NCBI RefSeq assembly: GCF_009829085.1
Contig: NZ_WUQY01000025.1
Span: forward strand, 1 to 64,000
Origin: Sphingobacterium bovisgrunnientis
GTDB lineage: Bacteria; Bacteroidota; Bacteroidia; Sphingobacteriales; Sphingobacteriaceae
Direction: 5' to 3'
Length of the DNA: 64,000 nucleotides
Below, piece by piece: positions 92 through 19,230 of this stretch. Under the pieces are notes generated by a model. The model was not told the DNA's origin. It saw only the letters and a list, made by a program, of their open reading frames with translations, and made no database searches. A program made the position numbers and the translations under genes. Every line of letters begins with the position of its first letter. Position 1 is the stretch's first letter.

Positions 92-2284
92 TTAAATACT
101 CGTAATTTCCAATATCGAACTTTTTATACTACCTCTCAAGTACCAATCTAATCCGACTTTCATAAGATAATCCCCAGAGAAAGTCTGTTCATTTCTATTG
201 AATTGAGGTTTTTGATTTGGCATCAAATTGATTTCTTTAATGGTGTGTTTTTTATTCGGATCCAAACCTTTCAAGACTAGTTTGCTAAACACATCACCAG
301 AAAGTATATTCAGGTTGTAATTGAACAATACAGCTTTAGATTTATCCTCAGAAATAGTCATCCATGCTGCAGTATTGTTGTTGTAAGGAGATAATAAACG
401 ATAAATTTCACCCTGACCAATCACTTTTTGTAGTCTATTGAAATTCTTTACTGCTTCTTGGCAATAAGTTAATTTGTCTCCGCTAAATTTCTCTAATTCG
501 ATATCAAAACCTAATTTCCCGCTCATTGCTACGTCTGTACGGAATTTGATGGGCTGTTTACCCCAAGATGTTACGTGTGCACACTGTGCTGCGAAAGGGA
601 AAAAGTACGAGTACGAATATTGCAAGTACACACGCTGCAATCCATCAGTATTATCACTTGGCCAAAATTCTTGAAAGTACTTCAAACCACCGTATTCTGC
701 TCTACCGCCACCACCGCTACACCACATCATTTCTAATTCTGGATATTTGCTTCTGAAGCGCTCAAGAACACTGTATAAACCATTCACATAGTCTACAACA
801 AGATTATTCTGATTATCCTTCAGGTAAGGTGAGTGTTGGTTAGTCATGTAGCGATTACAATCCCACTTGATGTACGCGATGTCCTTGCCATCTTGCATGA
901 TTTTATCCAATACATTATATACGTAATCCTGGACTTTTGGATTGGTCATATCCAATACCAATTGTTGTCTACGCTCATGGATATCACGATTTGGAAGTTT
1001 CCATACCCAGTCAGGGTGCTTTTCGTACAACTCACTTTTTGCACTAATCATTTCTGGTTCTACCCAGATACCAAATTTCACAACTTATCATGCGCTAATT
1101 TTACGAGATGCCCAATTCCATTGTCAATTTTTCCTTGTTTGGTTCCCAGTCACCTAAACTTGTATGGTCATTATTACGAGGATATTTGTTACCAAACCAT
1201 CCATCGTCTAGCAAGAATAAATCAATTCCAAGTTTTTAGCATCGCCAAACATATGATCTAGTTTTTTCTCATCAAAGTCAAAATAGGTGGCTTCCCAGTT
1301 ATTTAACAATGTTGTTCTCTTTTCACGACCTTTTCTAGATACCGTAGTCCAAAGCCCATTTGTGTAAATTACGACTTGCTTGACCTTTACCTTTCGTCGT
1401 AAAGGTATAGATGAATGATGGGGTCTTAAATTCTTTGCCTGCAGCCAAATTATATGCAGAAGAATAGTTGTTGATACCAGGAAGGCTTTGAAGTAAATAA
1501 CTAAATCTTCACTGTATTTTACCTTTTCGAAAGTCAATTTGAAATTTCCTGACCAAGCGAGAGTACCTGCAATCACAGTTCCTTCATCTTCTGTTGCGGG
1601 TTTGTCAACAGATAATAAGAATGATGGTAAATCAAAGTTTGTAGCTCTTGTCCCTAATTTTGATTCTATTCGGTGAATTCCTTGCGGAAGTAAAACCTCT
1701 TCGTTGCGCATTTCATTGATCCAATCGCCGTAAAAGTGTTGCAAATAATACTTTTCTACATTCAATTGCAATGCGGCTGAAGCGTAATTTTCCAATACCA
1801 CAGGTTTCTTTTCTTTATTAAGTTACGTGGACCAGGATTCTATCACATTTTCTTTTTGGAATGCCTTGAAAAATAATTTTACTTGGATAGAGTATTTTGG
1901 ATCTATCAATTCAATTGTTGTCGTTGTCACATTCCCATCAGCTGCTTTTTGATGTGAAACATACTCCAAATCTAAGGAAGTATTACCATCTGCTTGTTTT
2001 ATCTGTAAAGCTGGCTCTCGAACAATGTACATTCCTCCTGTTATCCATGTGTCAATTTCCGCATTTAGCAATTGCTGATAATCTCCTTTATTAGATAAGG
2101 CTTCACCCAAATATATTTGATGTAAAGTTTTGGCTGAACTTACACGAAATACTAGCGCAGAGTTTTGCGTTTCAATCACAATATCTTGGCCTTTTGAATG
2201 GAAAGATATTGTAAAAATCAGAAGAAGACTAAATCCAAATTTTGAAACAAAAGCATTCAGATTGGTTGATTTTTGTTTACTCAT
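92..2284 (-). pseudogene. GH36 alpha-galactosidase, decayed
   Basis: Read in pieces, this is a full-length secreted family 36 alpha-galactosidase of about 730 residues. An N-terminal signal peptide and beta-sandwich lie at 1823-2284, the middle at about 1208-1801 and the catalytic barrel plus C-terminal domain at 92-1081. The catalytic part keeps KWDCN (nucleophile Asp), the CSGGGGR loop and SDNTD (acid/base Asp). I count six lesions: an in-frame TAA at 1823-1825; single-base losses near 1495-1497, 1233-1237, 1128-1132 and 1085; and one base gained near 1331-1337. In the alternative frames the expected residues continue, for example LLDDGWFG followed by GDWEPNK between 1145 and 1235. No complete enzyme can be made. 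Most shifts fall in short A/T runs, so a local sequencing fault is possible, but no other gene in the window is broken. Confidence 0.9.
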
Positions 2285-2486
2285 AATGTTGTTATGTTGA
2301 TTATAAAAATGGCTCTCTAAAAAAAGTAATAATTTTATCTTATAGATTAAATAAATAAAAGCGTAATGCTATTGTTACTATAATTGCAATATAATATAAA
2401 CACTTTTTTATCATAAAATTAATTTTAGCGATGTTATGCAAAATTATTTTATAACTCGTTGTACTGATAAAAATAGATGGTAGCAC

Positions 2487-2528
2487 AAAAAAAATAGCGC
2501 CAACATTTACCTAAATGTTGGCGCTATT
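2487..2528 (-). terminator. intrinsic terminator after the first L,D-transpeptidase gene
   Basis: A perfect 17-bp stem (2493-2509 with 2512-2528, core GCGCCAACATTTA) has a 2-nt loop. On the minus strand it is followed by a run of eight T. It lies just downstream of the transpeptidase stop. Confidence 0.85.
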
Positions 2529-2560
2529 AAAACAATTATAAATTTTATGAGATTGGATAT

Positions 2561-3358
2561 TTAATAAGTAGAATAAGCACTATCAATGTCATTGACAACA
2601 TCTCTTTGAGCCAATAGCGTATTCGTTGATTTCTTTAATATTTTTGAGCTGGCTAAATATGATGGATCTTCAGCATAAATAAACACCATAGTTCCGTTCT
2701 TTATAGTATTAATGATAGGTTTATTCAGCTCTCTTGGCAGAGCAGGACAACCGTAGCTTCTCCCTAATCTACCTGTGGCATTGATTACAGATTGACTGCA
2801 ATAATCCGCACCATGTATGACTACTGCTCTTGGTTTAGCTTGATCATTAATTCCTTTTTCCAAACCGTGTAACACCAATGAATAACCATTTCCACCCATA
2901 TAGGTATTTTCTGTCGTATAGAACCCTAAAGAACTTTGAAACGAACCGTGTCTATTTGAAAACGAAGTAGCATATTTTTCGCCACTATTTCGGCCGTGAG
3001 ATACAATTGTATTATACAATACTTTCTTATTTTTCATGTCGATGACATGCATGCGTTTTTCTGTAGATGGTAGTGTAAAGTCTATAACCGTGATAATATC
3101 CTTGTTTTTAAATTCCAAATTTTCGTAACCTATCATCGCTTTATCGAAGGCTTCGAATTTTAATTTACCATCTAAACCAATTTCCTCATATAAGATCTCA
3201 GATGCAGATCTCGTATCTACATAAGCGGAATCTTTTTTAATATTATGTGGAATATTCGCCGTTTCTTGCGGTTGAAGGTAGGTTGCTGCGGTTTGACTGA
3301 TTATAGTGACAAGTCCTATACAGGTTGTTACTAAAGTAATAATTTTTGTTTTTCTCAT
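2561..3358 (-). CDS. Murein L,D-transpeptidase family protein (YkuD_2 type)
   Basis: This is a predicted exported L,D-transpeptidase-type enzyme acting on peptidoglycan stem peptides in the periplasm. A signal/anchor segment spans residues 1-25. The catalytic region carries IHGADYC (His182) and GRSYGCPAL (Cys204), the His/Cys arrangement of this family in Bacteroidota and Proteobacteria. The 265-residue length is normal. It is followed by a strong terminator and preceded by about 85 bp that separate it from a second, unrelated-looking L,D-transpeptidase on the same strand. Substrate and cross-link type cannot be read from the sequence. Confidence 0.85.
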   Translation of the reverse strand: MRKTKIITLVTTCIGLVTIISQTAATYLQPQETANIPHNIKKDSAYVDTRSASEILYEEIGLDGKLKFEAFDKAMIGYENLEFKNKDIITVIDFTLPSTEKRMHVIDMKNKKVLYNTIVSHGRNSGEKYATSFSNRHGSFQSSLGFYTTENTYMGGNGYSLVLHGLEKGINDQAKPRAVVIHGADYCSQSVINATGRLGRSYGCPALPRELNKPIINTIKNGTMVFIYAEDPSYLASSKILKKSTNTLLAQRDVVNDIDSAYSTY

Positions 3359-3445
3359 AAGCGCACTTTATCCTTTCGTGATGTACAAAGTTCGTTATCA
3401 ATTATTTATAAAAACGTTAAGAAATGTTAAATCCTTAACTTATGG

Positions 3446-4477
3446 TTAATCTATGACAATTACTAATGAAGAAAAAGGTTTCACCCAGTCATAAATAAAC
3501 TTTGAATGTGAGGAAGCATTGCGCACACACATATGTGAACGCGGCACTGTACCTAGACTCCAACTAGTCTCAATTATCTGTCCTTTGGGATTATTAACAG
3601 GCACACCATGTATATATGCTCCATTTGTAAAACGTGATGCCCAAGGCGCAAATCCTTCAATACTTGTCGTACCATCCTTGTAATAAAACATCTTCGCTTT
3701 TTGTTCTTGTACCAAAAACATTCCTACAGGAGTTTCCATTGCATATGGAGGGTTATGTTTACCTGTGGTTGCTTTATTCATGCTACGGATGTACCACGTG
3801 TCATCAATATGATCCAACGCACAGATATTTTGATTGGTCACATCAACTACCACTATATGCTTGAATGATAATGTGTCTCCTAAAGCCTTTACATATCGAT
3901 TTGGAATATCCCATTCACCTTCAAAATTACTTAAACCTTTGACACGAACCATCTTGAGCGTATCGCTAGATAAAATTTTAACTAATGAGCCATCGCGACC
4001 ATATATGGAGGGAAGTTTAGTCTCGCCAACTTGGTATAAAGGAGCAGACTGATAACGTTCTGTGCCCAATGTGTCTGACACCCTTTTGTACGCATTTCGT
4101 TTGAAATTCGCTACTGTTGGTGCTTCTCCATGTTTGTTCTTATAATTTGAAACCAATCCATATTGATTGTGCTCACGCTGAAAATTCTCGATATAAGCTA
4201 GTTTTTCTTTGATCTTTTCCCATTGAAAAACGCGGAACGTGTCATTGTATTCATATTGGTCCTCAAGGGTGTATTTGTCGTATTTCAGCTCTTTTTTGAG
4301 TTTTATATCCGCAGCAGTTCTTGGACGTTTTTTTTCGGCTTCATCCTGCTCTTTGCGTACATTTTCAATACTGTCTTGTTTAGCTTTTTCAATCTCTTCG
4401 GGTGTTTTCTCTTTTTTCGAAGAATTACAAGAGATGATAAATTGTGTGATAAGTGCAAATAGTAGTATGTAGCGCAT
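3446..4477 (-). CDS. L,D-transpeptidase lipoprotein (YkuD domain)
   Basis: The 343-residue protein starts with a lipoprotein signal peptide ending in ISC (Cys17). A highly charged Lys/Glu stretch of about 60 residues follows, likely a coil reaching from the membrane to the wall. The C-terminal YkuD domain has YIHGVPV (His290) and SHMCVR (Cys317), the catalytic pair of L,D-transpeptidases that make 3-3 cross-links or attach proteins to peptidoglycan. The residues after the lipid Cys are Asn-Ser-Ser-Lys-Lys without an acidic export signal, which fits periplasmic retention. It is tandem with the other L,D-transpeptidase gene and downstream of an unknown membrane protein on the same strand. Confidence 0.85.
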   Translation of the reverse strand: MRYILLFALITQFIISCNSSKKEKTPEEIEKAKQDSIENVRKEQDEAEKKRPRTAADIKLKKELKYDKYTLEDQYEYNDTFRVFQWEKIKEKLAYIENFQREHNQYGLVSNYKNKHGEAPTVANFKRNAYKRVSDTLGTERYQSAPLYQVGETKLPSIYGRDGSLVKILSSDTLKMVRVKGLSNFEGEWDIPNRYVKALGDTLSFKHIVVVDVTNQNICALDHIDDTWYIRSMNKATTGKHNPPYAMETPVGMFLVQEQKAKMFYYKDGTTSIEGFAPWASRFTNGAYIHGVPVNNPKGQIIETSWSLGTVPRSHMCVRNASSHSKFIYDWVKPFSSLVIVID

Positions 4478-4527
4478 ATAGCGTATAATTGATTTTAATG
4501 TAAGTGATTAAATCAAATATATTAAAA

Positions 4528-9147: not shown

Positions 9148-9957
9148 TTAACTTATATATCCTTTTACGTATTGCTGAGTTATTGGATTTTGAGGATTCA
9201 TCAATACATCTTCGGTCTTTCCAAATTCTACTACCTCACCGTTATAAACGAATATTATATAGTCTGAGACACGACGTGCTTGACGAAGGATATGTGTTAC
9301 TAGTACGATTGTATAATCTTTCTTTAAATCGATTAATAGGTTTTCAATAGTTTGTGTGGATATAGGGTCCAATGCTGAAGTACTCTCATCACCAAGTATT
9401 ATTTCGGGCTGAACAGCCAATCCACGTGCTAAACACAATCTTTGTTGCTGACCAATGGATAATCCTGTTGCCGAACTATCAAGACGATCTTTTACTTCAT
9501 CCCAAAGTCCCACATTTCGGAGTTGAGTCTCTACAATTTGCTCCAAAACCTTTTTGTTTTTCTCGCCATGAATTTTAGGACCATAAGCTACATTCTCAAA
9601 AATAGACATGGGTAGAGGGAATGGTCTTTGCGAAAGCAATCCCATTTTCTTACGTATATGTGTGACTTCAGCATCTTTCGCGTAAATATCTTCACCATTT
9701 ACCAAAACCGAACCTGTAACATTCACTTCTTTGGAATCATCCATCAGACGATTTAATGTTTTCAGTAATGTAGTTTTACCACAACCTGATGGACCAATAA
9801 TAGAAGTAATTGAATTATTGGGAAAATCAAGATTGATATTCTTTAATATATGTGCTCCTTCGATATGTACATTCAAATCCTTGATTTGAATATGTGGTGT
9901 ATTGGGAAGGACTATATTTTGTGTTTCTTTTGTTTCGATGCTAGAATGTGCGTGCAT
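9148..9957 (-). CDS. pstB: Phosphate ABC transporter ATP-binding protein
   Basis: PstB is the ATPase of the high-affinity phosphate importer. Walker A is GPSGCGKTT (residues 55-63), the Q-loop region is LLSQRPFPLP, the signature is LSIGQQQR (166-173) and Walker B runs into GDESTSALDP (189-198). Two positions differ from the usual family wording: the signature has Ile for the first Gly of LSGGQ, and the residue after the catalytic Glu is Ser rather than Pro. Both catalytic acidic residues are present. The start overlaps pstA by 46 bp. The operon order is pstS, pstC, pstA, pstB. No phoU follows. Confidence 0.93.
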   Translation of the reverse strand: MHAHSSIETKETQNIVLPNTPHIQIKDLNVHIEGAHILKNINLDFPNNSITSIIGPSGCGKTTLLKTLNRLMDDSKEVNVTGSVLVNGEDIYAKDAEVTHIRKKMGLLSQRPFPLPMSIFENVAYGPKIHGEKNKKVLEQIVETQLRNVGLWDEVKDRLDSSATGLSIGQQQRLCLARGLAVQPEIILGDESTSALDPISTQTIENLLIDLKKDYTIVLVTHILRQARRVSDYIIFVYNGEVVEFGKTEDVLMNPQNPITQQYVKGYIS

Positions 9958-10766
9958 ATGACAATAATAAGAATGATCAATGTAAGTACTAAAGCAGAAG
10001 CGTAGGCTCTACCTTGTACTTCTGGAATAGGACTACTTAATTGAAAAAATATGGCTAATGGTAAAGTTGCTGCTGGTTCATCAATGTATTTTGGTAGATT
10101 ATCCGAAAAACCTGTTGTTAATAGTACGCCTGCAACATCGCCTATAGCACGGCCGAATGCCAATAATATAGCCGTAAAAATTCCTGGTTTGATATATTTG
10201 AGTAATACTTTAGCAGTTTCCCAAGTGGTAGCACCCAAAGATTTTGTTACATTTTTTAAATCAATAGGAATAGTTTTCAATAATTCATCTAGTGTCCGTA
10301 CAACGATAGGAATTGTTAATAATGTAATGGTGATTACGCCACCCAACAAAGAGGCACGTATACCAAGCCAAACCATAATACTAAAAGCTATAGCTCCGTA
10401 AACAATAGATGGTATACCAAATAATACATCGAATAATAATTTGGAAGACTTTTCAAGAAATGAACCTTTCTTAACGTACATATTTAGGTACAAAGCGATT
10501 GGGATACCTACTATTGTTGCTAAAACTGTAGAAAGACCTGCAAGATATAAAGATCCCAAAATAGCATTAAAAATTCCACCACCTTTTCCAATGTAAAATC
10601 CACCTTGAGGAGATTGAGAAATCATTTCCCAACTGATGTAGGGCAATCCTTTGTACAGGATAATTCCAATGATTAGAAATAAAGAACCTGTAATACTGAT
10701 GCCCGAAATTTGCATCAATATCTTAGCGATTTTTTCGCTTCTTAATCTTCTGTTAATATTTGACAT
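9912..10766 (-). CDS. pstA: Phosphate ABC transporter permease PstA
   Basis: One of two permease subunits forming the membrane channel of the phosphate importer. It is 284 residues long with about six hydrophobic membrane segments and the permease EAA-type loop SLGATTWETAKVLL, which docks onto PstB. GRAIGDVAGVLL is typical of PstA. The start codon overlaps the pstC stop (TAATG), so the two are translationally coupled. Confidence 0.93.
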   Translation of the reverse strand: MSNINRRLRSEKIAKILMQISGISITGSLFLIIGIILYKGLPYISWEMISQSPQGGFYIGKGGGIFNAILGSLYLAGLSTVLATIVGIPIALYLNMYVKKGSFLEKSSKLLFDVLFGIPSIVYGAIAFSIMVWLGIRASLLGGVITITLLTIPIVVRTLDELLKTIPIDLKNVTKSLGATTWETAKVLLKYIKPGIFTAILLAFGRAIGDVAGVLLTTGFSDNLPKYIDEPAATLPLAIFFQLSSPIPEVQGRAYASALVLTLIILIIVICTHILASKQKKHKI

Positions 10767-11653
10767 TAAGCGTGTTCCTCCAATCTATTTAAAATAATTC
10801 TTGAAATGAGGTTAAACCCAAAAATAATTACAAATAGGAGCAATGCTGCAAACATTAACGCCGCGTCATACAATGGAATTGACATCATTTCACCAAAATT
10901 ATTAGCAATCAAAGCGGGGATTGGATAACCTGCATCAAATAAGGATTGAGGTACTTTAGGTATATTACCACAAACCATCAATACGGCAACCGTTTCACCG
11001 AACGCACGTGAGACTGCTAACACGATAGAGGCTATAATTCCAGGTTTCGCCTTGCGCAATACAACTTTTTGGATAGTTTCCCATTTTGTTGCACCTAAGG
11101 ATAGGGATGCTGCCTTTAGTTCATTAGGGATAGTTTTTAAAACTTCCACCATAATACTAATCATTATCGGAAATATCATTACAGACAGCACAATGCCTCC
11201 TGCAAGAACAGAATAACCAGTGGTACTTACATTGAATATCGGTGCAATCCATTCTGAAATTAATGGAACAACAAACAATACCCCCCATACACCGTAAAGT
11301 ACTGGAGGAATTGCTGCCAATACATTCATTAATGGCAATACGGATTTGCGCAATCTATCAGAAGCATATTCGACCAAGTAGGTTGCAGCTAGTATACATA
11401 ATGGAACTGATATGATTAATGATATGAAGGTAACCCACAATGTGCCCATGATAAAAGGAAGGAAACCGAAATTTCCTTTTTGCGGTGACCATACTTTTTC
11501 GGTTAAGATGGAGAATAAATTCACACTGTCAAGTAAAGGAGAAGCTTTCAGTGCTAAACCAATAATAATTAATACGACCACAGATAATGATATGATTAAA
11601 AGTGACCGCGACAGATTTTTGGCAATAGAATCTTTTAGTAATCTAAGTTTCAT
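10766..11653 (-). CDS. pstC: Phosphate ABC transporter permease PstC
   Basis: This is the second permease subunit, 295 residues, with about six membrane segments. The docking loop reads SLGATKWETIQKVVL and is followed by SRAFGETVAVLM, the PstC version of the motif. Its start overlaps the pstS stop by one base (TAATG), and its stop overlaps the pstA start in the same way. This indicates a tightly coupled operon. Confidence 0.93.
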   Translation of the reverse strand: MKLRLLKDSIAKNLSRSLLIISLSVVVLIIIGLALKASPLLDSVNLFSILTEKVWSPQKGNFGFLPFIMGTLWVTFISLIISVPLCILAATYLVEYASDRLRKSVLPLMNVLAAIPPVLYGVWGVLFVVPLISEWIAPIFNVSTTGYSVLAGGIVLSVMIFPIMISIMVEVLKTIPNELKAASLSLGATKWETIQKVVLRKAKPGIIASIVLAVSRAFGETVAVLMVCGNIPKVPQSLFDAGYPIPALIANNFGEMMSIPLYDAALMFAALLLFVIIFGFNLISRIILNRLEEHA

Positions 11654-12624
11654 TATCTGTTTAATTTATCTAATTCGTGTGCGCGTTGTTGATCTGTGAG
11701 CGGCACATATCCATTTTCTAATAAATAGCCTTGTTGATTTTTATCCAAAATGAAACGAATGAATTCTTTTATTAGTTTACTATTATTATCATTCTTGATG
11801 ACAAATAAAAGCTCGCGCGTAGGAGGAGAAGGGTATTTACCCAAAGCGACAGCTTCCGTCAGTTCATCGAGATCTGCATAGAAATTTTCTTCTGGATCAA
11901 TTTTGCCATTCTTGTTTTGATCGATCGGGATCACTTCAATATTAGCCGTGGTTTTCTTGGTTTGAAGGTCATATATATAATTAATATTGTTAAAACCTAT
12001 CGCATTTGGACTATCTTTAATTGCTTGTGCTACGCCCGGATCACCAAATATTCCAACACCTTTAAGATCTTCTTGGGTTTTATCGAAAAATTTAGCCCAA
12101 GTTTCTGCCGCTCCAGCCGCGTCAGAGCGTACATAAACTCCTAGAGGAGAATGTGAAAATCTATTATCGATAGCTTTCCAAGTTTTATATCTCGAATGTA
12201 TAAAGATTTTCTCTAACTCTTCTTGTGTCAAACCTCTTCCTTTGATTAAGTTTGCGTTGGGATGGCTTGAGTTGAAAGTCCCCAATACAGCATCTTTAGC
12301 TACGAAAATTGGGTAAGCGCCTTTCTCGACTTCTTGTGGATGCAAATCACGAGACACTAGACCTATATCGGTCATATTCGTAAGTACATCGGCTATTCCT
12401 TTTCCTGCACCACCTGCAGAAATATTAAAACGTACGTTAGGATGTAATTTTTTGAAATCTTCCCCCCATAATACAACAATCGGGTATAATGCAAATGCCC
12501 CAGAAATGGAGATTGTCCCCACAAATCCAGTCTTTTCATCATAACCCTCTTTGACTTTAGGTGCGCATGCACTGCATATAATTGAAAGAATTAATACTTT
12601 AGTTAATGATTTTGTTAATTTCAT
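11653..12624 (-). CDS. pstS: Phosphate-binding lipoprotein PstS
   Basis: PstS captures inorganic phosphate and delivers it to PstC/PstA. The protein (323 residues) has a signal peptide with two candidate lipid cysteines (CSAC, residues 17-20). It then has the binding-protein blocks TISISGAFALYP, SAGGAGKGIADV (phosphate loop) and DIGLVSRDL. The later stretch VYVRSDAAGAAETWAKFF also fits the phosphate-binding family. It is the first gene of the operon and is divergent from the sulfite reductase gene, with 164 bp between them. Confidence 0.9.
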   Translation of the reverse strand: MKLTKSLTKVLILSIICSACAPKVKEGYDEKTGFVGTISISGAFALYPIVVLWGEDFKKLHPNVRFNISAGGAGKGIADVLTNMTDIGLVSRDLHPQEVEKGAYPIFVAKDAVLGTFNSSHPNANLIKGRGLTQEELEKIFIHSRYKTWKAIDNRFSHSPLGVYVRSDAAGAAETWAKFFDKTQEDLKGVGIFGDPGVAQAIKDSPNAIGFNNINYIYDLQTKKTTANIEVIPIDQNKNGKIDPEENFYADLDELTEAVALGKYPSPPTRELLFVIKNDNNSKLIKEFIRFILDKNQQGYLLENGYVPLTDQQRAHELDKLNR

Positions 12625-12788: not shown

Positions 12789-14894
12789 ATGCAAAGTTTT
12801 AGAACAGAATTAGAAAACCCAGTTGTAGAGCAAGAGATTATAGAACTCGAGCGTAAGATTAGAGCTTATCAGGAAGGACAAATTCCAGATGAGAAGTTTC
12901 GTTCGTTACGATTGGCAAGAGGAGTGTATGGACAGCGCCAACCGGGGGTACAAATGGTGCGCATTAAATTACCTTTTGGTAAAGTTACTTTTAAGCAAAT
13001 ATTAAAAATTGCAGATATTTCGGATGAATATGCTTCCAAAAATTTGCACTTGACTACACGTCAAGATATACAAATACACTACGTTAGTTTAGATAAAACA
13101 CCAGAATTGTGGGCTAAATTAGCAGAAGATGATATTACGCTGCGTGAGGCATGTGGTAATACTGTTCGTAATGTGACAGCATCGCCTACAGCAGGAATCG
13201 ATCCATTAGAGCCATTTGATGTATCACCATATGCGCATAAAACTTTCGAATATTTCTTACGAAACCCGATTTGTGCCGAAATGGGACGTAAAATTAAGAT
13301 TTCCTTTTCTAGTTCAGACCGAGATACAGCATTCTCTTATATACATGACTTTGGATTTATTCCGAAAGTGAAAATTGTAAATGGAGAAGAGGTAAGAGGT
13401 TTCAAAGTATTGCTTGGTGGTGGGTTAGGCTCACAGCCTTTATTGGCGCACGAAATCTTTGATTTCTTAGCAGAAGATCAAATTATTCCTTACATGGAAG
13501 CGACTTTACGTGTATTTGATCGTCATGGCGAACGCAATAACCGTAATAAAGCGCGTTTCAAATACCTAGTTCAAAAATTAGGTTTGGAAGAAGTATTGCG
13601 TTTGATTGAAGAAGAAAAAGTAGCTATCAAAAATAAATCTGTTGTTGTAAACAGAGAAGCTATACAGCAGCCTGCAGCGCCAACTTCGGTAGTGACACCT
13701 GTAGAACCAATTGATGCCGCAAAATATCAAGTATGGCGCGCCACTAATGTTTTTGAACAAAAACAAAAAGGTTTTTTTGGTGTGTATGTGAAAATTTTGA
13801 CTGGTGATATTCCGACTTCAAAAGCGAGAGAATTAGTTGCTGGAATCCGCGATCACATTGCAGATGATATTCGTATTACACAAAATCAAAATTTACTTTT
13901 CAAATATGTACGTGAGGAGTCATTGCCACACTTGTTTAATTTGTTTACACAATTAGGCATAGCAAATGCTGGTTTTGATAGTACAGCAGACGTAACGACT
14001 TGTCCTGGTACGGATACCTGTAATTTGGGTATTTCAAATTCTACCGAAATGGCGCGCGTTATTGAGCAATATATCCATGAATTCCATGAGGAATTTGTGT
14101 ACGAGCAAGATTTGAAAATCAAGATTTCGGGTTGTATGAACTCTTGCGGTCAACATGGTTTGGCACATATTGGTTTTCATGGTAGCTCCGTAAAAGCTGA
14201 AGGAAAAGTAGTTCCGGCAGCACAAGTTATGTTAGGTGGAGGTACAATTGGTGATGGTAAAGGTCGTGTCGCAGAGCGTGTTATCAAGGTTCCGACAAAG
14301 CGTGTGTTGCAAGTGGTTGACTTGGTTTTAGTTGATTACAAACAAAATAGATTAGGAGAAGAAAACTTTCATGCGTATTATGATCGTCAAGGAAAAGACT
14401 ATTTCTATCGCTTGTTAAAACCACTTTCTGATTTGACTACATTGACGGCAGATGAGTTTGTTGATTGGGGTCATGAAGGTACATTCGCAACCGCTATTGG
14501 TGTAGGAGAATGTGCTGGTGTGGTTATCGACTTAGTGGCTACACTTTTATTAGAATCAGAAGAAAAAATTGAATGGGCGAACAAAGCTTTTGACAATAGT
14601 CAATATGCAGATGCAATTTACCATGCCTACAGTGCATTTGTGTGGACTGCAAAAGCTCTATTATTGGATAAAGGTGTAAATGCAAGTACGCAAACTGCAG
14701 TTATCAATGAGTTTGATGCACGCTATGTGCAAGAAGGACTTTTTTCTTTCCCTACATCATTCGCAGAGCGCGTCTTGCAAATAAATAAATATGAACCTTC
14801 TAAAGAGTTTGCTGAAGTATTCATCAAGCAAGCAACAGCTTTTTCTTATGAAGCTGCAGAACGTAGAGAGTCATTACGCGTAGTAAACAGTTAA
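12789..14894 (+). CDS. Siroheme sulfite reductase with HEPN-like C-terminal domain
   Basis: This is the assimilatory sulfite (or nitrite) reductase reducing sulfite to sulfide in the cytoplasm. The first 550 residues hold the duplicated ferredoxin-like and siroheme/4Fe-4S halves. LTTRQDIQIH is the siroheme-contacting block of the first half. The cluster ligands are Cys405 and Cys411 (TTCPGTDTC) and Cys449 and Cys453 (CMNSC). Residues from about 560 to 701 form an extra all-helical domain (YADAIYHAYSAFVWTAKALL), which I read as HEPN-like; simple enzymes of this family end near 550-570. The cys neighbours favour sulfite over nitrite. No flavoprotein subunit is nearby, so ferredoxin is the likely donor. 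It leads a co-directional cluster. Confidence 0.9.
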   Translation: MQSFRTELENPVVEQEIIELERKIRAYQEGQIPDEKFRSLRLARGVYGQRQPGVQMVRIKLPFGKVTFKQILKIADISDEYASKNLHLTTRQDIQIHYVSLDKTPELWAKLAEDDITLREACGNTVRNVTASPTAGIDPLEPFDVSPYAHKTFEYFLRNPICAEMGRKIKISFSSSDRDTAFSYIHDFGFIPKVKIVNGEEVRGFKVLLGGGLGSQPLLAHEIFDFLAEDQIIPYMEATLRVFDRHGERNNRNKARFKYLVQKLGLEEVLRLIEEEKVAIKNKSVVVNREAIQQPAAPTSVVTPVEPIDAAKYQVWRATNVFEQKQKGFFGVYVKILTGDIPTSKARELVAGIRDHIADDIRITQNQNLLFKYVREESLPHLFNLFTQLGIANAGFDSTADVTTCPGTDTCNLGISNSTEMARVIEQYIHEFHEEFVYEQDLKIKISGCMNSCGQHGLAHIGFHGSSVKAEGKVVPAAQVMLGGGTIGDGKGRVAERVIKVPTKRVLQVVDLVLVDYKQNRLGEENFHAYYDRQGKDYFYRLLKPLSDLTTLTADEFVDWGHEGTFATAIGVGECAGVVIDLVATLLLESEEKIEWANKAFDNSQYADAIYHAYSAFVWTAKALLLDKGVNASTQTAVINEFDARYVQEGLFSFPTSFAERVLQINKYEPSKEFAEVFIKQATAFSYEAAERRESLRVVNS

Positions 14895-14905: not shown

Positions 14906-15673
14906 ATGAGTGAAGTGAAACCATTTGTAACACTAGTCGGAGCTGGTCCAGGTGATCCCGATTTGATTACATTAAAAGGTATTAAAGCCATCAAAGAAGC
15001 TGATGTAATTCTGTACGATGCTTTGGTAAATGAAGAATTATTAGATTATGCAAAAGAATCTTGTACAAAGATTTATGTAGGTAAACGTGCAGAACGGATG
15101 TCTACTTCACAAGATTATATCAATAAATTATTAGTTGACTATGCGTTGACGCATGGTCATGTCGTAAGGTTGAAAGGTGGAGATCCATTTGTATTTGGAC
15201 GTGGTGGAGAAGAGTTAGATTATATTCGTCAATTTGATATTCCAACGGCTGTTGTACCTGGGATTTCTTCTTCGGTAGGTTTGACTGGTTTGCAACAAAT
15301 TCCATTGACCTATCGCGGCATAAGTGAGAGTTTTTGGGTGATAACAGGTTCAACTTCAGATGGACTTTTGTCGGAAGATTTACGTCATGCTGTTAAAACT
15401 AATGCTACAGTAGTAGTTCTGATGGGTTATTCTAAGTTGCAAAAAATCATTGAATTATATCAAGAAAATGGTAGAGGTAATTTACCAATAGCATTGATTC
15501 AAAATGGTTCGTTAGAAAATGAGCGTTTAGCAATTGGTACGATAGATACCATTATGGAACAAGTTCATAAAAATCTTTTAGGTGTGCCTGCAATTATTGT
15601 TTTGGGTGAAGTGGTTGCAAAGCACCAATCTTTCCAAAAGTTAAAACAAGAGATCCAACATTTAGAAGCTTAA
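14906..15673 (+). CDS. cobA: Uroporphyrinogen-III C-methyltransferase
   Basis: SUMT methylates uroporphyrinogen III twice with S-adenosylmethionine to give precorrin-2, the first committed step to siroheme. Recognisable blocks are VTLVGAGPGDPDLITLKG at the N-terminus, VRLKGGDPFVFGRGGEE and VVPGISSSVG. The length of 255 residues fits a stand-alone enzyme. A strong ribosome site (GGAGAGG) sits just before the ATG, and the stop is directly followed by the ATG of the next siroheme gene. The product supplies the sulfite reductase encoded upstream. Confidence 0.93.
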   Translation: MSEVKPFVTLVGAGPGDPDLITLKGIKAIKEADVILYDALVNEELLDYAKESCTKIYVGKRAERMSTSQDYINKLLVDYALTHGHVVRLKGGDPFVFGRGGEELDYIRQFDIPTAVVPGISSSVGLTGLQQIPLTYRGISESFWVITGSTSDGLLSEDLRHAVKTNATVVVLMGYSKLQKIIELYQENGRGNLPIALIQNGSLENERLAIGTIDTIMEQVHKNLLGVPAIIVLGEVVAKHQSFQKLKQEIQHLEA

Positions 15674-16249
15674 ATGAATACGCTGTTTCCAATTTTCGTT
15701 AAAATGAACCAGATTCAAACCCTTTTAGTGGGGGCTGGACCGGTTGGTTTGGAGAAATTGCAAGCTATATTTCGTAGTTCTCCATTAGCGAAAGTAAAGA
15801 TTGTTGCGGAACAAATTATCCCAGAAGTTTTTGAATTCATTGCGGATAAAGAAACAATTCAATTAGAGCGACGTAGCTTTCAAGAGTCGGATTTGGATGG
15901 AAAGGATTTGGTTGTAGTAGCGAGTAACAATCCTGAATTAAATAAGCAGATTCGTGATTTGACTACTAAACGCCATATTATGTTGAATGTAGCGGATAAA
16001 CCAGATTTATGTGATTTCTACTTGGGATCTATCGTCCAAAAAGGAAACTTAAAAATTGGTATTTCAACAAATGGTAAATCACCGACAATGGCAAAACGAT
16101 TAAAAGAATTTTTTAATGAGATATTGCCAGAAGAAATTGACGAAACATTGGAGTTGTTGCAAGAATATAGAAATCAATTGCGTGGTGATTTGGAACATAA
16201 GATTAAGCAGTTAAATGCGCATACACAAGAAATAGTAAGTAAGAAATAG
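15674..16249 (+). CDS. Precorrin-2 dehydrogenase / sirohydrochlorin ferrochelatase-like
   Basis: This corresponds to the NAD-dependent half of CysG, or Met8p. It oxidises precorrin-2 to sirohydrochlorin and may insert iron to finish siroheme. The NAD-binding start LLVGAGPVGLEK follows a short strand. The block NVADKPDLCDFYLGSIVQKG and the STNGKSPTMAKRLKE stretch are family hallmarks. The start codon directly abuts the cobA stop, so the two are coupled. The length of 191 residues is normal for the stand-alone version. Confidence 0.9.
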   Translation: MNTLFPIFVKMNQIQTLLVGAGPVGLEKLQAIFRSSPLAKVKIVAEQIIPEVFEFIADKETIQLERRSFQESDLDGKDLVVVASNNPELNKQIRDLTTKRHIMLNVADKPDLCDFYLGSIVQKGNLKIGISTNGKSPTMAKRLKEFFNEILPEEIDETLELLQEYRNQLRGDLEHKIKQLNAHTQEIVSKK

Positions 16250-16252
16250 GGT

Positions 16253-16951
16253 ATGATTGATCATTTGAGAGCAAGTTTAAAAGGTTTGAATGCTGCACAA
16301 ATTATCCAATATATCACGGATAATTATGGCAATAGAGCTGTTTTTTCAACATCTTTCGGTATAGAAGATCAGGTGCTGACGCAGTTAATTGATGATGCAG
16401 GTGGGAAGATCGATGTTTTCACTTTGGAGACTGGACGTTTATTTCCAGAAACTTACTATGTGTGGAACAGAACTTTAGAACGTTACAAATTACCGATAAA
16501 GGCGTATTATCCGCAATCGGCTTTAGTAGAGGAAATGGTCACTAAAAAAGGACCATCAAGCTTTTACGAAAGTGTAGAGAATAGAAAAGAATGTTGTTTC
16601 ATTCGCAAAATTGAGCCATTAAAACGTGCGATTCAAGGTTACGAAATCTGGGTAACAGGTATTCGTGCAGAGCAATCAGCTAACCGTGAAGATATGGATT
16701 TTATTGAGTGGGATGAAGCGAATCAAATTATAAAGATTCATCCATTATTCCAATGGACATTAAGCGATGTGGAATCTCATTTAAAGCAGTATAATGTTCC
16801 TTATAATCCATTGCACGACAAAGGATTTCCAAGCATTGGCTGTCAGCCTTGTACACGTGCTGTGGCACCTGGTGAAGATTTTCGTGCTGGACGCTGGTGG
16901 TGGGAAGATAAGAGCAAGAAAGAATGTGGCTTGCATGTTACCAGCAAATAA
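16253..16951 (+). CDS. cysH: Adenylylsulfate reductase, Fe-S type
   Basis: This enzyme reduces activated sulfate to sulfite using thioredoxin. The nucleotide-binding block FSTSFGIEDQ is at residues 31-40. Cysteines 114-115 (KECC) and 197-200 (CQPC) are the 4Fe-4S ligands that mark enzymes preferring APS over PAPS. The catalytic Cys225 lies in KKECGLH at the C-terminus. No APS kinase (cysC) is in the cluster, which agrees with direct use of APS. It starts 3 bp after the siroheme gene and is followed by cysD and cysN. Confidence 0.92.
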   Translation: MIDHLRASLKGLNAAQIIQYITDNYGNRAVFSTSFGIEDQVLTQLIDDAGGKIDVFTLETGRLFPETYYVWNRTLERYKLPIKAYYPQSALVEEMVTKKGPSSFYESVENRKECCFIRKIEPLKRAIQGYEIWVTGIRAEQSANREDMDFIEWDEANQIIKIHPLFQWTLSDVESHLKQYNVPYNPLHDKGFPSIGCQPCTRAVAPGEDFRAGRWWWEDKSKKECGLHVTSK

Positions 16952-16995: not shown

Positions 16996-17886
16996 ATGGA
17001 TTATTTAGATCATTTGGAGGCGGAAGCCATTTATATTCTGCGAGAGGTTGCAGGGCAGTTTGAGAATCCTGCACTTTTGTTTTCAGGTGGAAAAGATAGT
17101 ATTACATTAGTTCATTTAGCGAAGAAAGCTTTTAGACCAGGCAAATTCCCTTTTCCGTTGGTACATATAGATACGGGGCACAATTTTCCAGAAACCATAC
17201 AATATAGAGATTGGTTGGTGGAGCAATTGGGTGAAAAGTTAATTGTCGGTTTGGTGCAAGAAAGTATTGATCAAGGAAAGGTAATCGAGCAAAAAGGTAA
17301 AAATGCAAGCCGAAATGCTTTACAAACGGTTACACTTTTGGATACTATTGAGAAAAATGGTTTTGATGCGTGTATCGGTGGTGCACGTCGTGATGAAGAG
17401 AAAGCAAGAGCGAAAGAACGTATTTTCTCGGTTCGTGATGAGTTTGGACAATGGGATCCTAAGCGTCAACGACCAGAACTTTGGAATATCTTTAATGGTA
17501 AAATTCATAAGGGAGAGAATGTTCGTATTTTCCCAATCTCTAATTGGACGGAATTGGATGTATGGAATTACATCAAACGTGAAAATATCGCGTTGCCTTC
17601 AATCTATTTCAGTCACGAGCGTGATGTAGTGTGGCGCAATGGGCAATGGATGGCTGCAGCTGAGTGTTTAAATATTGATTCGGATGATTTGGTTGAACAT
17701 AAATCTGTACGCTTCAGGACAGTAGGAGATATGACATGTACAGCTGCTGTAGGTTCTGTTGCTACAGAATTAGACGATATTATCGAAGAAATCAAAGCTT
17801 CAACTGTGAGTGAGCGTGGTGCCCGTATGGACGATAAAGTATCCGAAGCAGCGATGGAAGAACGTAAAAAACAAGGTTATTTTTAA
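16996..17886 (+). CDS. cysD: Sulfate adenylyltransferase subunit 2
   Basis: CysD is the catalytic ATP sulfurylase subunit that makes APS from sulfate and ATP, driven by GTP hydrolysis in CysN. The PP-loop SGGKDS is at residues 30-35. The blocks GGARRDEEKARAKERIFS, PISNWTELDVW and the C-terminal GARMDDKVSEAAMEERKKQGYF region (about 275-296) are typical. The length of 296 residues is close to the E. coli protein. A 99-bp spacer with an unusual periodic hairpin separates it from cysN. Confidence 0.94.
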   Translation: MDYLDHLEAEAIYILREVAGQFENPALLFSGGKDSITLVHLAKKAFRPGKFPFPLVHIDTGHNFPETIQYRDWLVEQLGEKLIVGLVQESIDQGKVIEQKGKNASRNALQTVTLLDTIEKNGFDACIGGARRDEEKARAKERIFSVRDEFGQWDPKRQRPELWNIFNGKIHKGENVRIFPISNWTELDVWNYIKRENIALPSIYFSHERDVVWRNGQWMAAAECLNIDSDDLVEHKSVRFRTVGDMTCTAAVGSVATELDDIIEEIKASTVSERGARMDDKVSEAAMEERKKQGYF

Positions 17887-17985: not shown

Positions 17986-19230
17986 ATGAATATTCTAAAA
18001 TTTATCACGGCTGGTTCTGTTGACGATGGAAAAAGTACCTTAATTGGCCGTTTGCTATATGATACCAACTCGATTTTAGATGACCAATTGGAGGCTATCC
18101 AAAAGGCGAATCGCAAGAACGATGATGGAACTGTGGATTTGGCAATCTTGACCGATGGTCTAAAAGCCGAACGCGAGCAAGGTATCACCATTGATGTGGC
18201 GTACAAATATTTCCAAACGGAAAATCGTAAGTTCATCATTGCGGATGCGCCAGGACATATCCAGTATACACGTAACATGATCACGGGAACGTCCAATTCG
18301 GATTTAATTATTATCCTTATTGATGCACGTAAAGGTGTAATCGAACAAACGAAACGTCACTCTTTTATTGCGAAGCTTTTATCGCTAAAACAAGTATTGG
18401 TTTGTGTCAACAAAATGGATATGGTGGATTATGCGGAGGATGTATATGAAACTATTAAAGCTGACTATTTGCAATTAGCAAAAAACCTTAAGTTGGAAAA
18501 TGTTGATTTCATACCAGTTTCGGCATTGAAAGGGGATAATATCGTTGACAAATCTTCCCGTATTGCTTGGTATGAGGGACCAACTTTGTTGGAATACCTA
18601 GAGCAAGTTGAATTCGAGGAAAGCAATGTCGATACGTGGCGTTTTCCGGTGCAATGGGTAATCCGTCCACAGTCGGAAGATTATCCGGATTACCGTGGTT
18701 ATGCAGGACGTGTGATTGGTGAAGGCGTAAAAGTAGGAGAGTCTGTGGTGATTTTGCCTAGCGGTGTACAAACAACCATTGAACGCATAGAATTAGATCA
18801 AAATGAATTACAAGCTGCACATGATGGTCAATCGGTGGTATTGCATCTTAAAGATGATGTAGATATTTCGCGTGGTGATTTTATTGTGTCTGCGAATAAA
18901 CCTGCTCATGCCGAACGCGGATTTGAAGCAAATATCTCATGGTTTGAAAATAAAGCTTTGGATACAAATCAAGTGTATTTATTACAAAATCAAACCAAAG
19001 TCACTAAAATCAAAATTCCTGAAGTGCAGTACAAATTTGATGTTAATACGCAAGAACGCATCTACGATGAAGATATCCGTTTAAATGATATTGGTCGTGT
19101 ATCCGTTAAAGCTGCTGAGGAAGTTGTTTTTGATTTAAACCGTGATTTTCCAGGTAATGCACGTGGTATTATTATCGATCCACGCAATAACCTTACGGTA
19201 GGCGCATTGACGGTAGAAGAGTTATTATAA
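17986..19230 (+). CDS. cysN: Sulfate adenylyltransferase subunit 1 (GTPase)
   Basis: CysN is the regulatory GTPase of ATP sulfurylase, related to EF-Tu. G-motifs are GSVDDGKST (residues 10-18), the switch region EREQGITIDVAY, DAPGH (88-92) and NKMD (143-146). Domains 2 and 3 (beta barrels) fill the rest of the 414 residues. There is no C-terminal APS kinase fusion (no CysC part), which again fits an APS-reducing pathway. A strong terminator follows, closing the sulfate cluster. Confidence 0.94.
   Translation: MNILKFITAGSVDDGKSTLIGRLLYDTNSILDDQLEAIQKANRKNDDGTVDLAILTDGLKAEREQGITIDVAYKYFQTENRKFIIADAPGHIQYTRNMITGTSNSDLIIILIDARKGVIEQTKRHSFIAKLLSLKQVLVCVNKMDMVDYAEDVYETIKADYLQLAKNLKLENVDFIPVSALKGDNIVDKSSRIAWYEGPTLLEYLEQVEFEESNVDTWRFPVQWVIRPQSEDYPDYRGYAGRVIGEGVKVGESVVILPSGVQTTIERIELDQNELQAAHDGQSVVLHLKDDVDISRGDFIVSANKPAHAERGFEANISWFENKALDTNQVYLLQNQTKVTKIKIPEVQYKFDVNTQERIYDEDIRLNDIGRVSVKAAEEVVFDLNRDFPGNARGIIIDPRNNLTVGALTVEELL

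Follow-up and report, generated by a model that had tools for sequence, protein, structure and literature searches.

A siroheme sulfite reductase of Sphingobacterium bovisgrunnientis with a C-terminal HEPN domain predicted to be non-nucleolytic and widespread in Bacteroidota

The closest described counterparts of the enzyme reported here are M. tuberculosis NirA (1zj8), E. coli SiRHP, and maize SiR (5h92). For assimilatory enzymes of this kind (aSir), the parts of the Fsr structure paper considered here give a canonical cluster motif and a rule of four basic residues for substrate binding, describe catalysis as running to sulfide without intermediates, and state that N- and C-terminal extensions presumably reinforce dimerisation and contact partners (PMC10229431). 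According to the covered parts of a 2026 study, four aSiRs, all from outside Bacteroidota, yield S0, possibly protein-SnH, as their direct product (PMC13188885). In those parts, neither paper treats the HEPN-bearing lineage described below. The nearest described counterpart of the additional domain is AF0298 of A. fulgidus (2hsb; PF05168, UPF0332). A literature search pairing HEPN with sulfite reductase, sulfite, or siroheme, with preprints and most subscription papers outside its scope, returned only a fungal domain survey naming both separately. No HEPN-sulfite reductase architecture was found in the literature covered; InterPro and Pfam architecture pages may list it. The words 'reductase', 'sulfite', and 'nitrite' are absent from the main text of the HEPN review (PMC3710099).

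The gene lies at positions 12789–14894 (plus strand) of the window, the 64,000-nucleotide stretch of S. bovisgrunnientis DNA that was analysed. Its reading frame runs from ATG to a stop codon with no internal stops and encodes 701 aa, in which Pfam recognised NIR_SIR twice and NIR_SIR_ferr twice, followed by HEPN (PF05168) at residues 586–635. The first reductase half, delimited by Pfam, comprises residues 47–276 (12927–13616, plus strand) with the predicted substrate-binding residues R58, R127, K168, and K170. The second half covers residues 313–546 (13725–14426, plus strand; Pfam and structure alignment), and the known fold ends there. The [4Fe-4S]/siroheme cysteines C405, C411, C449, and C453 (CX5C...CX3C; 14001–14147, plus strand) were present without exception in the 51 aligned sequences. 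R58, R127, and K168 were likewise kept in all 51 and K170 in 47, the other four, NirA-like, having Asn. Both the CX5CXnCX3C motif and the four basic residues are thus present in the 701-aa protein, as in NirA, SiRHP, and maize SiR, which it also resembles in fold (Z 27–30). AlphaFold2 modelling of the full chain on 72 sequences gave a mean pLDDT of 80.6, and VIA-align matched the core to the solved structures of E. coli SiRHP (Z 30.4), NirA (Z 29.8), and also plant enzymes.

These three known enzymes align only up to residue 546, beyond which the 701-aa protein adds a GECA tetrapeptide and a HEPN domain. None of the solved reductases listed aligned with the model past that residue, and the extension thus found no counterpart in a known sulfite-reductase C-terminal extension. 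The original prediction, made from the DNA letters alone, was right that the protein extends beyond the core but put the end of the core at about residues 550–570, slightly later than the 539–546 found here.

With the NCBIfam models for CysI, Sir, NirA, and NiR, the scores of the protein were far under the cut-offs: 124.2 bits for the NADPH sulfite reductase CysI model TIGR02041 (cut-off 756.55) and 206.1 and 240.8 bits for NF007125 and NF007126 (ferredoxin-nitrite reductase and NirA; cut-offs 594 and 523). Lysine at position 170, the residue that sulfite reductases have there, fits a sulfite reductase rather than a nitrite reductase; the title of a tobacco NiR entry with N226K agrees with this Lys/Asn rule. 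A relative from Aureibacter (Bacteroidota) is annotated as 'nitrite reductase' in its record.

The reductase gene is followed on the plus strand by genes for uroporphyrinogen-III C-methyltransferase of siroheme synthesis (14906–15673; TIGR01469, 270.5 bits, cut-off 185), the siroheme synthase N-terminal domain (precorrin-2 dehydrogenase/ferrochelatase; 15674–16249; TIGR01470, 114.4 bits, cut-off 62.3), the (phospho)adenylylsulfate reductase CysH (16253–16951; NF002537, 274.9 bits, and TIGR02055, 248.9 bits, both above cut-off), CysD (16996–17886; TIGR02039, 425.7 bits, cut-off 396.6), and CysN (17986–19230; TIGR02034, 503.4 bits, cut-off 336.1). Judged from these matches, the sulfate-assimilation operon around the reductase gene is complete, and it is of the same kind as the operons of ferredoxin/NirA-type assimilatory reductases. 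A scan of contigs yielded 80 related loci, named as Sphingobacteriaceae genera, Sphingobacteriales, or Bacteroidetes. Although some were cut by contig ends, the siroheme dehydrogenase was a neighbour in all 80, CysH in 78, the methyltransferase in 73, CysD in 70, and CysN in 69. Because siroheme and CysHDN genes are neighbours both here and in these loci, we take the 701-aa protein as the sulfite reductase of the assimilatory pathway; fold, motifs, and operon together point to an assimilatory siroheme sulfite reductase activity.

The minus strand of the window carries, at 9148–12624, genes of a phosphate pst-type transporter that read divergently from the sulfate operon. Of their products, PstC scored above its NCBIfam cut-off, and PstS-like and PstB below theirs. 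In three Sphingobacteriaceae sulfate operons, the siroheme dehydrogenase domain is fused to a TauE/SafE sulfite-exporter domain (L040, 8845–10359; L050, 8845–10374; L070, 8864–10540); the same gene is unfused in the window.

The extension is, by sequence profile and predicted fold, a HEPN domain of the UPF0332/AF0298 type with five helices at residues 579–700 (14523–14888, plus strand; PF05168; fold match 2hsb). PF05168 matched the whole chain with 22.3 bits (gathering cut-off 22, E 1.5e-4) and the extension alone with 25.2 bits. Among close relatives, represented in alignments A1 and A2 by the 701-aa protein and 71 of the 80 loci (the remainder omitted as near-duplicates picked by eye), it matched 72 of 72 at E <= 0.01, with a best E of 5.3e-9. 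AlphaFold2 predicted helices at residues 582–602, 606–627, 635–647, 658–666, and 672–700. When modelled alone, the extension had a mean pLDDT of 82.4, mostly above 90 within the bundle, and matched AF0298/2hsb with Z 15.3 (rmsd 2.8, 117 aligned); in the full model the match covered residues 579–697 with Z 15.7. AF0298 was also the top match of the extension sequence profile (E 0.0025), and of 994 aligned PDB chains ranked by Z, those at ranks 1–3, 5, and 6 were titled HEPN proteins. The likeness could in principle have arisen by convergence of an unrelated helical bundle, given that the Pfam score hardly exceeds its cut-off and that helical bundles reach middling structural Z by chance; with PF05168 found throughout the close relatives, AF0298 first by both sequence profile and fold, and further HEPN proteins next in rank, we regard this as extremely improbable. 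The HEPN-like domain that had been proposed after the core was thus confirmed, and modelling of the full chain predicted the five-helix bundle. Of the roughly 140 helical residues originally expected, the bundle accounts for about 122, the remainder being a linker with the GECA segment. HEPN-bearing reductases of several lineages (L124, L125, L126, L127, L155) finish in [FY]Y[NK]A, an ending that the 701-aa protein lacks.

Unlike AF0298, the HEPN domain here is fused to a metabolic reductase, is acidic, and is devoid of the Rx4-6H motif of HEPN RNases. The motif was absent from the extension, including the R...H pair expected at residues 658–670 (14760–14798, plus strand), so the check for an RNase site that the original prediction had proposed came out negative for the 701-aa protein. 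Its residues at the motif columns are Q635, Q664, and E669. Across the 72 close relatives, Gln occupies the upstream His position 635 in 71, position 661 is Leu in 52 and Arg in 13, and Gln 664 and Glu 669 are found in 67 and 69, respectively, and neither R nor H is conserved in the motif columns; the second His of the AF0298 type is replaced by Gln in 71 of the 72. R-x4-6-H strings elsewhere in the extension occurred in 23 of the 72, at the turn between helices 1 and 2 or near residues 640–645. In a set of 45 diverse relatives, R-x5-H was found at the aligned site in three, all of a single lineage (L114–L116), and loss of the motif is therefore not universal; ten of the 45 have His at 635. 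All 72 close relatives had a HEPN net charge between -4 and -10, and the charge was also negative in 44 of the 45 diverse ones, which is unlike an RNA binder as far as charge can tell. In the 701-aa protein, the RNase motif is lost, and the domain is predicted to be non-nucleolytic.

Motif-less HEPN proteins such as MtlR have been proposed to bind RNA, and alternative active sites have been proposed for AF0298-type members, in the parts of the HEPN review considered here (PMC3710099). The domain might accordingly still cleave or bind RNA and make the enzyme a moonlighting regulator, a reading with which the R-x5-H of three diverse relatives and the His at 635 of ten would agree. The motif residues of the 701-aa protein, Gln 635 in nearly all close relatives, the scarcity of Arg at 661, and a negative charge throughout speak against it, as do the downstream genes, which are sulfate and siroheme genes. 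We consider it very unlikely in general, and for the 701-aa protein an active RNase or RNA binder was rejected on the absent motif, the acidic charge, and this gene context.

The phylogenetic spread of the fusion, also marked earlier as worth checking, was assessed in 392 Bacteroidota genomes. Whole-protein matches were found in 156, and many of these were partial, falling on siroheme enzymes of other kinds. Profile A2 of the extension, which spans the GECA linker and HEPN, matched 72 genomes: in 64 it was in frame with the reductase in proteins of at least 694 aa, and in 8 only in short reading frames of at most 170 aa. Of the 64 fused cases, 58 were strong (E 8.1e-39 or better) and six divergent (1.8e-6 to 1.1e-14). 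The E-values of the divergent six are partly due to GECA, and we therefore use 58 as the strict count of fused HEPN. The divergent proteins tested against Pfam were under the cut-off or unmatched (L114, 13.6 bits; L112, 17.7 bits; L118, no match), and A2 did not match genome G386 (L112) at E 0.001. The strong 58 are all the genomes of the same genus, family, and class whose reductase match fell below E 1e-200, and each of them has HEPN. In the genome of S. bovisgrunnientis itself, the reductase is the sole PF05168 match. A match was found in 93 plasmid records, of which only four had at least 80% query coverage, and the two such records among the matches listed (H1, H2) were both from Bacteroidota. 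The arrangement is thus a real lineage-wide architecture and not a local oddity; it had been called unusual, which holds for the HEPN superfamily but not for this enzyme lineage. Mean identity to the 701-aa protein was 0.59 for HEPN versus 0.81 and 0.69 for the two core halves. dN/dS of HEPN was ~0.02–0.10 in the six pairs, of nine, that had a finite HEPN dS, and on this estimate the domain is under purifying selection.

Core and HEPN are joined by a linker, residues 547–578 (14427–14522, plus strand), which holds the tetrapeptide G573-E574-C575-A576 (14505–14516, plus strand). GECA was found at 573–576 in 54 of 63 aligned siroheme reductases (58 tree sequences and five from plasmid records). 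It is missing from nine: four NirA-like enzymes, L131 with its fused ThiS, and four enzymes encoded on plasmids of other phyla, which are among the five taken from the 93 plasmid records. Within the 54, which were chosen for having GECA, the columns of all 63 aligned sequences being counted afterwards, 67 positions were invariant. Five runs of three or more were seen, TTRQ 89–92, GGLG 211–214, CPG 405–407, SGC 447–449, and GECA 573–576, the last being the sole invariant stretch past residue 484. In all 54, C575 sits 120–125 residues after C453.

Nine relatives of one genus (g74) have no HEPN, their chain stopping one residue past the tetrapeptide, as GECA[AV], with the equivalent of C575 third from the C-terminus. 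The Cys tail thus belongs to the enzyme, with HEPN behind it, and HEPN is dispensable in this genus. An in-frame TGA near 577–580 of several HEPN-less matches had raised the candidate of a selenocysteine in the tail; it is an ordinary stop after GECA[AV] and not the codon of C575. Reductases of g74 ending in GECA[AV] are those of L117 (2941–3798), L143–L150, and L153; a rhodanese gene follows the one in L117, and L153 is the second GECA-type reductase of genome G456. In a tree of 58 sequences, 53 GECA rows grouped with SH-aLRT 99, by a quick method and in a tree with long branches that meet; L142 of G200, where a contig end truncates the reductase, was excluded and counted neither way. The tree fits both an ancestral HEPN with one loss and two gains.

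In the AlphaFold2 model, the segments of low confidence besides the chain ends were 38–52, 119–126, 250–253, 410–413, and 567–580. Some of them adjoin cofactor or substrate residues, and the model is compatible with GECA lying at the cofactor pocket; since GECA itself was modelled at low confidence, a position near the cofactor is a guess. A cysteine pair C122-C575 was considered and set aside as evidence. Of the 54 sequences with GECA, 53 also have Cys at 122, five positions ahead of R127, one of the predicted substrate residues. C122 is, however, found as well in three GECA-less siroheme reductases, from Deinococcus, Halomontanus, and Planctomyces plasmid records, and L153, alone among the GECA sequences, has Gly there; the pairing is therefore not exclusive.

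The GECA segment, which the original prediction had overlooked, may matter more than HEPN. It is even conceivable that the tail alone is functional and that HEPN is no more than a cap, neutral or stabilising, as the invariance of GECA in 54 of 54, its place as the sole invariant stretch past residue 484, its retention in the nine HEPN-less relatives, and the lower conservation of HEPN would suggest. The HEPN domain is nevertheless kept in 58 of 58 genomes of the same class with the enzyme and appears to be under purifying selection, and we regard this explanation as unlikely.

Our preferred reading, to which we give a probability of about 0.5, is that HEPN is a domesticated, non-nucleolytic part of a probably CysJ-independent reductase that serves as an oligomer scaffold, as a holder of GECA, or as both. 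A HEPN domain of UPF0332/AF0298 type would have been joined to the C-terminus of the reductase deep in Bacteroidota and would now be a fixed part of the enzyme. Electrons would come from a donor, probably other than CysJ, and sulfite would be reduced at the siroheme-[4Fe-4S] centre. The HEPN bundle would most likely keep the enzyme oligomeric, and it might hold the GECA segment to the core, close to the cofactor pocket. The nine g74 relatives without HEPN, and a HEPN identity lower than that of the core halves, count against a scaffold role; oligomerisation or regulation, the functions first suggested for the domain, remain plausible.

The electron donor was approached through searches for CysJ (threshold 300 bits) in 38 of the 64 genomes with the HEPN-bearing reductase. 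CysJ at or above this threshold was found in one of these 38 versus 8 of 24 others, and in seven of seven others of the same class. The best CysJ match in the genome of S. bovisgrunnientis had 67.3 bits versus a cut-off of 668.15. Within genus g8, CysJ was present in none of six searched genomes with the HEPN-bearing reductase and in all three others; by these matches, the two enzymes appear to substitute for each other even inside one genus. At least one Fer2 protein was found in 37 of the 38 genomes. As 60 of 62 genomes overall have one, the Fer2 search had no discriminating power.

Ferredoxins of the plant type are acidic proteins that bind to basic surfaces. With CysJ in one genome of 38, another donor would have to dock, and HEPN could be the docking platform for it or for another partner (ferredoxin, reductase, cysteine synthase) instead of an oligomer scaffold. 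The near-constant presence of Fer2 proteins would fit this, and partner binding is one of the roles proposed for aSir extensions in the parts considered of the Fsr paper (PMC10229431). HEPN is, however, acidic where ferredoxins prefer basic surfaces, the Fer2 matches do not discriminate, and nine relatives do without the domain; we find a docking role doubtful.

A more speculative role concerns GECA itself. DsrC, whose penultimate Cys binds sulfur according to the parts considered of PMC3397948, likewise belongs to a siroheme sulfite-reductase system and carries a conserved Cys on its C-terminal segment. The analogy is mechanistic only, and no sequence relation is claimed: DsrC acts in trans and has two cysteines, whereas the GECA tail has one, on the same chain as the reductase and, in most members, between two domains. 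By this analogy, C575 could be an in-cis sulfur acceptor, the tail reaching the siroheme and taking the product sulfur as a persulfide, with HEPN as a clamp or gate that holds the arm and offers it to an acceptor downstream. The cysteine is conserved (54 of 54 GECA-type sequences), and the model around it has low pLDDT. We rate this role as distinctly unlikely.

Related loci repeatedly link siroheme reductases with protein-bound sulfur: TusA and ThiS genes follow the HEPN-bearing reductase in L118 (5901–9157) and L119 (5382–7276), L118 also having ThiF and DsrE_2; L131 (2958–5033, Bacteroidota) encodes a siroheme reductase that ends in a domain of the ThiS family (45.7 bits); and L156 of the haloarchaeal Halomontanus (622–4514) encodes a rhodanese-reductase fusion. 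The latter two thus also have an extra domain on a siroheme sulfite reductase, there a sulfur carrier or sulfurtransferase and in the 701-aa protein HEPN. The arrangement in L118 and L119 looks like a protein-bound sulfur relay, and in L156 a gene of the F420 hydrogenase/dehydrogenase beta-subunit type comes directly after the fusion.

If the sulfur-acceptor role were true, the GECA cysteine would give an assimilatory sulfite reductase its own arm for delivering sulfur, and GECA is a testable handle on whether such enzymes let sulfide go free or hand on sulfur in the zero-valent state. Enzymes bearing HEPN in this way can be misnamed, as the 'nitrite reductase' of Aureibacter illustrates. A toxin/RNase fold that has become a constant element of a central metabolic enzyme in many Bacteroidota is a clear case of domestication.
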